Below are positions 12,076 to 26,730 of a DNA stretch of 35,985 nucleotides, in pieces. A model generated the notes under the pieces. That model was not told the origin of the DNA and ran no database searches. It was given only the letters and a program-made list of their open reading frames with translations. Location: positions 1 to 35,985 of the forward strand of contig NZ_NCII01000097.1 of NCBI RefSeq assembly GCF_002256775.1, in the 5' to 3' direction. Each line of letters opens with the position of its first letter. Within the stretch, counting starts at the first letter, position 1. The DNA is from Novosphingobium sp. 17-62-19 (GTDB lineage Bacteria > Pseudomonadota > Alphaproteobacteria > Sphingomonadales > Sphingomonadaceae). The position numbers were made by a program, and so were the translations under genes.

Positions 12076-12158
12076 CATCGCAAGGCGGCTGAATCGGAAC
12101 CGAGTGACACAAGCCGCGCCGCCCCCGGCGCACATTGATACAAAGAGGACCAGGCCAC

Positions 12159-13615
12159 GTGCGATACGCTTATGGTGTGACTTCGGCGCTGCTGCTTGCA
12201 GGCAGCGCACTGACCCTGGTGACAGGCCTTCCCGCTGGCTGACGCAGCAATTGCAGCCTGCGGTGGTGAACATCTCAACCCGCCAGCGCGTGAAGGTGCA
12301 GAACAACAACCCGTTCGCCGGAACGCCCTTTGGCGATCTGTTCGGTGGCGGACAGGGCGGCGGACCGCAGACGCGTGAAGCGCAATCGCTGGGTTCGGGC
12401 TTCATCATCTCTGCCGATGGTTATGTGGTGACCAACAACCACGTAATCACCGCTGACGGGCAGGGCGAGGTCGAATCGATCACCGTCACCACGCCCGATG
12501 GCACCGAATATCCGGCCAAGCTGATCGGCAAGGACGCCGCATCGGATCTGGCCGTGCTGAAGATCAGCGCGCCCAAGGCTTTCCCGTTCGTGAAGTTCGG
12601 CGATTCGCGTCAGGCCCGCGTGGGTGACTGGGTCATCGCTATCGGCAACCCGTTCGGGCTCGGCGGCACGGTGACGCAGGGCATTGTCTCGGCAGTCTAT
12701 CGCAACACAGGTTCGGGCTCGGCCTATGACCGTTATCTCCAGACCGACGCATCGATCAACCGGGGCAACTCGGGCGGGCCGATGTTCGACATGGCGGGCA
12801 ACGTGATCGGCATCAACAATGCCATCTTCTCGCCCACCGGCGGCTCGGTCGGCATCGGCTTTGCCATTCCGGCAGAGATTGCAGCGCCCATCGTGGACAA
12901 GCTGCGTGCTGGCCAAGCGATTGAGCGCGGCTACCTTGGCGTCCGCATTCAGGCGCTGTCCGATGATCTTGCCGCATCGCTGGGCCTGCCCAAGAAACGT
13001 GGTGAATTCATTCAGGCAGTTGAGCCAAACCAGGCCGCAGCCAAGGCGGGCATCCAGCCGGGCGACGTTGTGGTCAAGGTCGATGGCAAGGACGTGACGC
13101 CGGATCAGACGCTGTCGTTCATCGTCGCCAACTCCACCCCCGGAAAGCGCATTCCGGTGGAACTGCTCCGCAATGGCCAGCGCCTGACGGTGCAGGCTGT
13201 GGTGGGCAAGCGTCCGACGGAAGAGGAAATCGCCGAGCAGAGCTTCGATCCCGACGCCGCGCAGGATGAAGACAGCTTTGCCGATAACAAGCAGCAGCAG
13301 CAAGGCCCCGGCGTTCTCCAGACCAACCTTGGAATCGCTGCGATCCCGCTGAACGCGCAGATCGCCCGCCAGCTTGGCGTTGGCGAAGACACCAAGGGCG
13401 TCGTGATCTCGGCCGTCAGCGCATCGTCCGACGCGGCGGCAAAGGGCCTGCAGCGCGGCGATATCGTGCTTTCGGCCAACTACATCGCGGTGGCGAGCGT
13501 GGCCGATTTCGAAAAGATCGTCCGCACCGCCAAGACTGAAGGCCGCGAAGCCGTGTTGCTGCGCATCCAGCGCCGTGGCCAGCCGCCGATCTACACGCCT
13601 GTGCGCATCCGCTGA
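12159..13615 (+). CDS. Do/DegP-family periplasmic serine protease, signal peptide out of frame
   Basis: A trypsin-like protease with two PDZ domains that degrades or refolds damaged envelope proteins. The protease body is intact in one frame: His (codon 12440-12442, VVTNNHVI), Asp (12545-12547, AASDLAVLK) and Ser (12770-12772, RGNSGGPMF). PDZ1 follows near 12930-13200 and PDZ2 near 13330-13610. That frame has no signal peptide; its open part reaches back to a GTG at 12104 without a ribosome-binding site. A second frame has GTG 12159 behind AGAGGA and encodes a good signal peptide (MRYAYGVTSALLLAGSALTL, then VTGLPAG), but stops at 12240-12242. Joining them needs a shift near 12218-12242. Most likely a few codons linking signal peptide and mature protein were deleted out of frame, or the assembly is wrong. 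Confidence 0.85.
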
Positions 13616-13670: not shown

Positions 13671-15263
13671 GGCTCTGACTCACTTTTGCTGCTGGAGGTG
13701 CTCAGTTTGCGCCGACGAGGCGAGCTTCAAGCAGATCGAGCTTTGCGCGGCCATACATTTGACGTTTGATGCATTTCGGACCGCTGCCAAGTCTCGTTCA
13801 ACGCCGTTGACAAAAGAGCTCACGAGGCCGCCTCTTGCGCTGTCGAGCCAGTCACTGAGCTTAGCCGCTGATTTTGAACGGATCATCGATTGGAACTCGC
13901 TGATCGCTTGACGCGCTGCGACCAGATCAGGGACATGATCTTCGATCACGGCCACAAGGATCGCTTCGGATCTGGCAAGTCCGTCGCGCGCAGATGTCAT
14001 CAGCCGCGCAAGCACCCGTGCCGATGGTGTGCGAGCGAGGCCGCTTTGATTGGCCTTCTCGGCAAGGCGCCGACGTTGCGCCCATTGCGATACGATACCA
14101 CGTTGCCCGACAAAGCCTTCGTTGCGCATTTCACGCCAGAGCGCCGAGGCATTGCGAGCACCAGCCTCCCACCTATCATTCATCCATGGCAGCCAGGCAT
14201 CAAGGGAGCTAGGCCGAGTGCGGAATACATCCAGACGCTGACCGCGCAGCACGTCGCGTACGAGCTTGCGGCTGTACCCCGTTTGTCGAACGATTTGCCG
14301 GATGGAGGTCCCATTCTGTGAGAGTTGTTGGATTGCTTCATTCGTCTCCTGCCGGCGCAGGTAGCCTTCATACTGCAGCTTCTCGGCACAGGTGAGAAGC
14401 TTGGGATCCACGACATTGTTGCCGACCGCATGCCTAATCTGACGCATGGATTTGTTCACGGCATCAAGGAATGCCCGGCTCGAGTTCTCCATAAGATGCC
14501 ATCTGTCCGCGACCTGTTCAGCATCAGGTAGACCTTTGGCGATGGCTTCACCGTAGCCGCCACCGCGATCACGGGCGACAACCGATATCGAGGGATGCCT
14601 TGCAAGCCAGGCGCGGGACGTTTCCAAGGCGCGATCTGGCAGCAAGGTAACAGGTTTGCGCCGTTCCAAATCGCAAACAATCGTGCCGTAAGTTTGACCA
14701 CGCCGAAAGGCGAAGTCGTCAATGCCAATGACATTGAGCTCATCGCACCGTGCACCGACACGTCGCCGTACGACCCGCAACAGAGTGTCTTTGCTCACAG
14801 GCATCATCAGCCGTTGGGCAAAAGCTGCTCCAGGCCTGCCACCAAGCGCCAGTCCAAGCTGATGAACGATCGTTTCGAGCCGCTGAGTTCGCCGAGCGTA
14901 CCGGGTAAGAACGCTTTTATTGAATTGCTCGCAAAAGATGCGTCGGCCACAAACTACCACGTCACACCAGAAACGACGTGCCTCGATCAAGAGAATAACC
15001 CGCCGACCGCTAAGCGGAAGGTCCGATGGTCTGCGCACATATCGACTTTGTACGCGCCGACTTGGTCGGCCACAGTCGGGACATGTCCCTACAGAGCAAC
15101 GCGACCGTAACAGAATATGGAAATTCTCACCGACGCTATCAACCGAAACGACCACGAAACCTTCGGGGACCAAGTTCGCGCGCTGAAATCGACCGGGCAT
15201 GGCAGATCCTCTCAATGGAACAGCCAAAGCCTATCATACCAGCAGCAAAAGTGAGTCAGAGCC
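13671..15263 (-). mobile_element. Complete ISL3-family insertion sequence, 1593 bp
   Basis: The element is bounded by perfect 25-bp inverted repeats: 13671-13695 (starting GGCTCTGACTCACTTTTGCT) and 15239-15263 (ending in the reverse complement). It carries one transposase gene that fills almost all of it. ISL3 elements normally make 8-bp target duplications. Here the flanks are CCTTTTTC on the left and GTCAACCT on the right, so no duplication is present. Base use is visibly less GC-rich than in the flanking genes. The right end interrupts a small membrane-protein gene and the left end touches the Do/DegP terminator. Confidence 0.92.
13680..15200 (-). CDS. ISL3-family transposase
   Basis: A 506-residue DDE-type transposase. 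An N-terminal zinc-ribbon region (CPDCGRPSRRVQSRY, later RRFWCDVVVCGRRIFCEQF) precedes a helix-turn-helix part. The catalytic core contains VIGIDDFAFRRGQTYGTIVC and VARDRGGGYGEAIAKGLPDA followed by QVADRWHLMEN, all typical of ISL3. The ATG at 15200 is preceded by AGAGGATC; a TTG at 15227 in the same frame is a weaker alternative. The stop codon lies inside the left inverted repeat. The frame is uninterrupted and the key segments are present, so the enzyme may be active. Confidence 0.94.
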   Translation of the reverse strand: MPGRFQRANLVPEGFVVVSVDSVGENFHILLRSRCSVGTCPDCGRPSRRVQSRYVRRPSDLPLSGRRVILLIEARRFWCDVVVCGRRIFCEQFNKSVLTRYARRTQRLETIVHQLGLALGGRPGAAFAQRLMMPVSKDTLLRVVRRRVGARCDELNVIGIDDFAFRRGQTYGTIVCDLERRKPVTLLPDRALETSRAWLARHPSISVVARDRGGGYGEAIAKGLPDAEQVADRWHLMENSSRAFLDAVNKSMRQIRHAVGNNVVDPKLLTCAEKLQYEGYLRRQETNEAIQQLSQNGTSIRQIVRQTGYSRKLVRDVLRGQRLDVFRTRPSSLDAWLPWMNDRWEAGARNASALWREMRNEGFVGQRGIVSQWAQRRRLAEKANQSGLARTPSARVLARLMTSARDGLARSEAILVAVIEDHVPDLVAARQAISEFQSMIRSKSAAKLSDWLDSARGGLVSSFVNGVERDLAAVRNASNVKCMAAQSSICLKLASSAQTEHLQQQK

Positions 15264-25731: not shown

Positions 25732-26385
25732 TTGTCCACTGGCCCGCATCGCATCGTCTTCGCCAACGAAAAGGGCGGAACCGGCAAATCCACCACAGCG
25801 GTCCACGTCGCCATTGCGCTGGCCTGCCAAGGTGCGCGGGTGGCGACGATCGATCTCGATTCCCGCCAGCGAACGATGCACCGCTATTTTGAAAACCGCG
25901 CCGAAACCATGCGCCGCCGCGACATTTCGCTGCCCTCCGCCACGTTCGAGGTCTATTCGGGCGACAGTATCGAAGAACTGGACGCGATGACCGCGCGGCT
26001 GGCCGAAGCCCACGATTTCCTGATTTTCGACACGCCGGGCCGCGATGATCCCCTCGCCCGCCATGTCGCTACCCGCGCCGATACGCTGGTGACCCCGCTG
26101 AATGACAGCTTTGTGGACTTCGACCTGATCGGACAGGTGGACGCCGAAACATTCAAGGTCCGCCGCCTTTCGTTCTACGCCGAACTCATCTGGGAGGCGC
26201 GCAAGAAGCGGGCGATGGCAACGATCAAGGATGCGCGCCGGGAAATGGATTGGGTGGTCGTGCGCAACCGCACCGGCTTTACCGAAGCGCGCAACCAGAA
26301 GCGCATCGACACCGCGCTGACCGAGCTTTCCAAGCGTGTAGGTCACATTGGTCGGCGGATTGAACCTGCCGAAGCTGAATCCTGA
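25732..26385 (+). CDS. mipZ: MipZ-type division-plane ATPase, C-terminus lost by out-of-frame deletion
   Basis: A ParA/MinD-superfamily ATPase. MipZ forms gradients from ParB at the poles and inhibits FtsZ, placing division at mid-cell. The Walker A is NEKGGTGKST around residues 12-21, and DLDSRQRT at 41-48 and LVTPLNDSFVDFDL are MipZ signatures. EARNQKRIDTALTELSKRVG also matches the family. After RVG the frame ends in 13 unrelated residues at 26385. The +1 frame encodes LVGGLNLPKLNPELPLDAPK and ends at TGA 26438-26440, resembling a MipZ C-terminus that lacks about 45 residues. The start is a TTG at 25732 with AGAGAGAA upstream, before MSTGPHRIVFANEKGG. The next gene starts at 26440, overlapping that older stop. 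Confidence 0.85.
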   Translation: MSTGPHRIVFANEKGGTGKSTTAVHVAIALACQGARVATIDLDSRQRTMHRYFENRAETMRRRDISLPSATFEVYSGDSIEELDAMTARLAEAHDFLIFDTPGRDDPLARHVATRADTLVTPLNDSFVDFDLIGQVDAETFKVRRLSFYAELIWEARKKRAMATIKDARREMDWVVVRNRTGFTEARNQKRIDTALTELSKRVGHIGRRIEPAEAES

Positions 26386-26440
26386 ACTGCCTCTAGATGC
26401 ACCTAAAAGCACCAAGACTGCACTTGAGAGCGCTGCCTGA
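26386..26440 (+). pseudogene. mipZ: Remnant of the mipZ C-terminal coding frame
   Basis: Downstream of the premature stop, the +1 frame (from about 26348) stays open and reads like the end of a ParA-type protein, LNPELPLDAPKSTKTALESA. Its TGA overlaps the ATG of the J-domain gene in a TGATG arrangement. It would be translated only if the frame were restored. Confidence 0.55.
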
Positions 26441-26730
26441 TGGTCAAACTGCTCACGATCGTCGCCTTGGCGTGCGTTGCTTGCAAGCTGCTCGCCGGGC
26501 GATGGCCGTGGGAACTTCTGGCAGGCGATCCGCGCGACCGGAACGAGAAGAAAGCGCGCAATCTGCTCGGCCTGTCACGCGATGCCGCCTATGATGACGT
26601 GATCGAAGCGCATCGCCGCCTGATCCAGAAAGTCCACCCCGACCGCGGCGGCACCAACGAAGCCGTCCACGAAGCCAACGCCGCGCGCGACCTTCTCCTT
26701 GCCCGCCTGTCCGACCAGCGCGATTCCTGA
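26440..26730 (+). CDS. Membrane-anchored J-domain protein (Pam18/TIM14-like layout)
   Basis: A 96-residue protein with one N-terminal membrane segment (LLTIVALACVACKLLAG) and a C-terminal J-domain with the HPD motif at residues 66-68 (KVHPDRGGT). J-domains stimulate Hsp70 ATPase; the membrane-plus-J layout is like mitochondrial Pam18 and its alphaproteobacterial relatives. The ATG overlaps the original mipZ stop (TGATG), so its translation was probably coupled to mipZ. The phosphoglucomutase gene starts six bases after its stop. The partner Hsp70 could be DnaK or the HscC-type protein 2.5 kb downstream. Confidence 0.85.
   Translation: MVKLLTIVALACVACKLLAGRWPWELLAGDPRDRNEKKARNLLGLSRDAAYDDVIEAHRRLIQKVHPDRGGTNEAVHEANAARDLLLARLSDQRDS

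Follow-up and report, generated by a model that had tools for sequence, protein, structure and literature searches.

The mipZ gene of Novosphingobium sp. 17-62-19 is assembled with a gap of 131 nt relative to its closest relatives, and this gap is very probably a local assembly or scaffolding error with no real gene loss behind it, the organism itself most likely having a normal full-length MipZ. The DNA analyzed here (hereafter the window; 35,985 nt) is the entire contig C145 of a 3.8-Mb genome in 149 contigs, rated 94.91% complete, and the break lies in mid-contig, with 26 kb on its left side and 9.6 kb on its right. In Caulobacter, mipZ is essential. The relevant features of the locus are as follows:

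25732..26385, + strand: mipZ open frame as assembled, with a TTG start and 217 aa; true MipZ sequence to VG at about 26342, then unrelated residues
26342..26344, + strand: mipZ breakpoint, where 131 nt of the relatives are missing; no microhomology against the relatives read
26345..26440, + strand: surviving mipZ 3' end in the next frame (31 codons, 81% identical to genome G114), closing with the original TGA on the J-domain ATG
26440..26730, + strand: J-domain-like small protein gene, its start overlapping the original mipZ stop

Translation of frame 1 followed MipZ through ...ELSKRVG and then ran on as HIGRRIEPAEAES to the stop at 26385, which confirmed the preliminary description of a MipZ frame that continues into unrelated residues after SKRVG. 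From about position 26345, frame 2 yielded TLVGGLNLPKLNPELPLDAPKSTKTALESAA (TLVGGLNLP...TALESAA), whose stop, the TGA at 26438-26440, overlaps the following ATG. The gene beginning there scored 26.9 bits against the Pfam DnaJ model, slightly under the cut-off of 27.8. With regard to family membership, the window protein matched the Pfam MipZ profile (PF09140) with an E value of 6.5e-90 at positions 1-207 of 262 and nothing beyond; the N-terminal P-loop ATPase core is present, and the complete C-terminal part (profile 208-262, equivalent to Caulobacter residues 212-258) is absent. Over 203 residues, the protein was 94% identical to its counterpart in G114 and 96% identical to that in G044, the closest genomes found. 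It also aligned with Caulobacter crescentus MipZ (PDB 2XJ4, 2XIT, 2XJ9) from residue 7 to the VG at 210-211 (E 2.8e-50), but the stretch 212-258, in which R219, R221, L237, R242 and L248 are located, has no counterpart in it.

The MipZ proteins of G044 and G114 resemble that of the window in the gene itself, in the stop/start overlap and in the C-terminal tail, but differ in that they retain the 131 nt. Their sequences end ...DAPSSTKTALESAA in G044 and ...EAPTSTKTPLESAA in G114, both on TGATG and with the tail as in the window, so that the original stop at 26438-26440 on the J-domain ATG has indeed survived, as the preliminary description had proposed. DNA alignment gave the same net loss of 131 nt against either genome, i.e., 44 codons less one base, and an out-of-frame mipZ deletion relative to an intact ancestor, also claimed there, is therefore borne out for the assembled sequence and is specific to the window genome among the genomes searched. 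Except for that one base, the absent stretch corresponds to the segment FRVASGLSERVIYRELFPSGLTLLDKGxLGELGTSHLVARQELR; the earlier estimate of about 45 missing residues with an ERVIYRE/FPxGLTLLD region was thus close to the 44 found in relatives. The segment aligns with Caulobacter MipZ residues 212-258. Our homolog set comprised the best 80 of 587 GTDB homologs found, one of which, L056, is truncated by the end of its contig and was not considered for the segment; in all 79 readable homologs of this set the segment was present and always 44 residues long.

This comparison bears on two readings in which the assembled sequence would be correct and the gene functional. A short MipZ of 217 aa that the cell tolerates or has adapted, a minimal P-loop ATPase lacking the C-terminal segment, would agree with the complete and conserved ATPase part (profile 1-207), but the short form occurs in none of the 79 readable homologs, all of which carry the segment, and any change in the window gene would have to be very recent because it retains its original tail, stop and overlap; we regard this reading as very improbable. 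Programmed frameshifting or recoding that restores a full MipZ is the least credible of all: even though the next frame is open over the C-terminal end, a frameshift cannot supply 44 residues whose DNA is absent from the assembly, and it was rejected on these grounds.

In order to define how far the loss is specific to this genome, 119 genomes of the genus, drawn evenly, were surveyed with cut-offs of E ≤1e-25 for the N-terminal part and E ≤1e-5 for the segment. The N-terminal part was detected in 115 of them and the segment in 114, the sole genome with the former and without the latter being that of the window; the four genomes that lack both parts (G018, G057, G078 and G102) have a completeness of 52-88%. 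When the survey was restricted to genomes with ≥90% completeness and ≤5% contamination, the N-terminal part was found in 91 of 91 and the segment in 90 of 91. Within the window genome's own assembly, neither the missing segment elsewhere (best match E 0.61, none at 1e-5) nor the left-out piece as a separate piece was found, the latter being a point against an assembly error; the search for a second intact mipZ, which the preliminary description had suggested, was likewise negative, as no other match passes profile position 142, and a second intact copy was rejected. A second MipZ-like protein of 36-43% identity was observed in 11 of the 119 genus genomes (G023, G050, G056, G071, G072, G076, G084, G090, G093, G117 and G130), and G075 carries a second MipZ copy at 71%. 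Elsewhere in the same order, G025, G032 and G036 (99, 95 and 97% complete, respectively) gave weak ParA-like matches only (best E 8.8e-6 to 5.5e-4); these genomes may lack MipZ or carry one that is too diverged.

A real, very recent deletion of 131 nt, by which the lineage would make a truncated MipZ, is the leading alternative, and we consider it unlikely. It is in keeping with a loss that is specific, situated in mid-contig and not accompanied by a second intact mipZ in the assembly. Against it, all 90 other high-quality genomes of the survey carry both the N-terminal part and the segment. Such a protein would probably be unable to bind DNA or to regulate FtsZ, with misplaced septa or the use of another division system as the outcome. 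In a study on Caulobacter MipZ, nine residues are reported as important for DNA binding, R219, R221, L237, R242 and L248 among them (PMC7229837); these five of the nine fall into the stretch 212-258, so the organism would be expected to pay a cost if the segment were truly lost. Nevertheless, R221 alone of the five is identical in the intact relative L038, and the L248A variant still bound DNA with high affinity in vitro in the same study (PMC7229837), and therefore the cost argument rests mainly on the conservation of the segment.

Similar clean losses were found in other conserved genes of the same assembly; it is for this reason that an assembly error is favored for mipZ. The three further broken genes are the following:

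12117..13615, + strand: HtrA/DegP-type protease gene, with a blunt, out-of-frame loss of 79 nt at 12239; continuous in G114 and G128
G000:C34 (L136), near 292-310: recQ, with an out-of-frame loss of 115 nt by DNA and 121 nt by protein alignment
G000:C87 (L134), near 13964: M23 peptidase gene, with a blunt, out-of-frame loss of 130 nt

In the HtrA-type gene, the loss separates the signal-peptide part from the protease domain, which are now out of frame with each other; the segment is present in G114 and G128, and the remaining control pieces gave no match to that part. The recQ break lies between the RQC and HRDC domains or at their edge, and RecQ is continuous in all five relatives searched, being split in the window genome only. 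The segment missing from the M23 peptidase gene is present in G044 and G121. Altogether, the own genome showed four such losses in 133,035 nt, roughly one per 33 kb, all of them blunt, gene-internal, out of frame and 79-131 nt long.

Two further observations concern the surroundings of the HtrA-type gene. The DNA at about 12140-12235, over the gene start, is nearly identical in the window genome, G114 and G128, with a dS (own genome vs. G114) of 0.07 over 41 codons compared to 0.67 for the remainder, a degree of sequence conservation that may point to a hidden RNA or regulatory element; a comparison of the window with Rfam at gathering scores gave no match. Directly after this gene, an ISL3-type transposase gene (13680-15227, - strand) is located in a stretch of about 1.5 kb that has no counterpart in G114.

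The count of four losses refers to a comparison with six G114 regions totaling 140 kb (the 40-kb counterpart of the window plus five 20-kb stretches), set against the 133,035 nt of the own genome, window included; seven G114 stretches were fetched, and L129 and L133 were left out of the comparison. A loss was counted when it was blunt, out of frame, at least 50 nt long and broke a gene with both sides left in place. No such loss was seen in 156,830 nt of the control genomes G044, G121 and G128 against G114. These controls span two of the six regions, namely the window counterpart and, for G044 and G121, one more, whereas G128 covers one only; over the same two regions, the own genome (55,187 nt) has three of its four losses. 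The extra 40.4 kb of own sequence that was sampled contained no additional gene-internal loss of this kind. With samples of similar size, the contrast of four losses to zero is suggestive but falls short of being overwhelming; blunt joins recur in this assembly and were absent from the control sequence of the relatives.

The gene-by-gene comparison returned 13 candidate rows for the own genome (131 of 135 frames), and 2 in 39 frames for G044, 8 in 40 for G121 and 2 in 27 for G128. Candidates in the controls amounted to 1-17 nt, save for one net insertion of 106 nt in a 57% identical 5' stretch of G044. Ten of the own candidates, with net changes of 1-16 nt, were not counted as lesions, most of them presumably lying in 5' extensions of stop-to-stop frames. 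Both mipZ and recQ were counted from direct alignments; the gene-by-gene set contained no mipZ, which was presumably dropped through its overlap with other frames, and held a frame opposite recQ. At the DNA level, three losses longer than 50 nt (no more than 25 unmatched nt being allowed on the short side) were found in the controls:

G044, 956 nt: covering an entire gene
G128, 858 nt: covering almost all of a gene
G128, 131 nt: intergenic

Three other differences of the own genome were not counted as lesions, i.e., a 133-nt blunt difference at 15311 of L134 (C87), which is a strongly folding element also missing in G044 and with repeat hits in G121, a repeat-like difference between frames at 13040 of C70, and a difference at 4912 of C119.

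The main parts of mipZ, the HtrA-type gene, recQ and the M23 peptidase gene gave omega values of 0.094, 0.048, 0.064 and 0.091, respectively, against G114, and no stops were present in the aligned pieces of any of them; for the short pieces, omega was noisy (0.27, 0.87, 0.10 and 0.38 on 31, 41, 85 and 33 codons). For mipZ, comparison of the window with six relatives resulted in values of 0.10-0.13, and pairs of intact genes in 0.05-0.15. Normal purifying selection thus acts on the larger pieces of all four genes. This disfavors old decay of such breadth, since stops and relaxed sites would be expected and none were seen. Neither further lesions nor relaxed selection, as looked for in a test for pseudogenes, were observed, although a very recent pseudogene would look identical; a normal omega is also expected if a real deletion is very recent. 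However, a real deletion would then require at least four independent out-of-frame events of equal recency and similar size, all in conserved genes that show no relaxed selection. The scenario of a Novosphingobium lineage that very recently lost the conserved C-terminal region of its sole MipZ and survives with a truncated or dead division-site regulator, alongside a broken HtrA-type protease, RecQ and M23 peptidase, appears improbable. Taken together, these data do not support a genuine truncation of an essential gene, and an assembly error, the alternative already named in the preliminary description, fits better.

The assembly also bears marks that a de Bruijn assembly would be expected to leave, namely exact end overlaps of length k and an N gap. 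Among 26 contig ends, three exact end-to-end overlaps were found in the range of 26-300 nt, each of precisely 99 nt; C1 and C110 share end sequence without such an overlap and fall outside this count. The exact 99-nt overlaps are a mark of de Bruijn assembly. In C87, a run of 84 Ns, the only N run in 310,765 nt of own sequence, takes the place of 243 nt that separate closely matching flanks in G114; if it is a scaffold gap, it falls 159 nt short of G114, and it could alternatively be a withheld stretch rather than a scaffold gap. From these marks, we infer a short-read de Bruijn assembly in which contigs would have been joined across gaps judged too small or zero. Underestimates of the same sign as that of the N run, amounting to 79-131 nt on gaps judged zero, would leave blunt joins. 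In mipZ, two correctly assembled pieces of an intact gene would thereby have been joined bluntly, with about 131 nt left out, and for that reason the assembled gene would look frameshifted and short.

This reconstruction is in line with errors described for short-read metagenome assemblies. As stated in a review of metagenome assembly, gaps and local assembly errors that are left uncorrected bring incomplete or wrong protein-coding genes into databases, local assembly errors are suspected to be prominent in IDBA-UD assemblies, and the ends of metagenome scaffolds often overlap by about the largest k (PMC7111523). The likeness lies in the incomplete genes at faulty joins, the end overlaps of about the largest k and the N runs, whereas the published errors were diagnosed from reads (PMC7111523) and the present case from assembled sequence.

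At the two breaks that were worked out, shared bases against relatives numbered none at mipZ and one at the HtrA-type gene. A repeat scan of the window is uninformative on deletion between direct repeats because only one copy would remain. Strong hairpins were rejected as a common cause, given that the missing segments, taken from G114, were not uniformly more structured than random stretches (the fraction of background with lower folding energy was 0.67 for mipZ, 0.06 for the HtrA-type gene, 0.10 for the M23 peptidase gene and 0.87 for recQ).

As an artefact, which is how we interpret the mipZ gap, the finding cautions against a biological reading of broken essential genes in this assembly: within the 3.5% of the genome that was compared to a relative, the breaks in four conserved genes are false or doubtful, and an analysis of gene loss would miscount them. 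If the MipZ truncation and the three other broken genes were true, the MipZ system would be dispensable outside Caulobacter, and the need for MipZ in sphingomonads would become directly testable.
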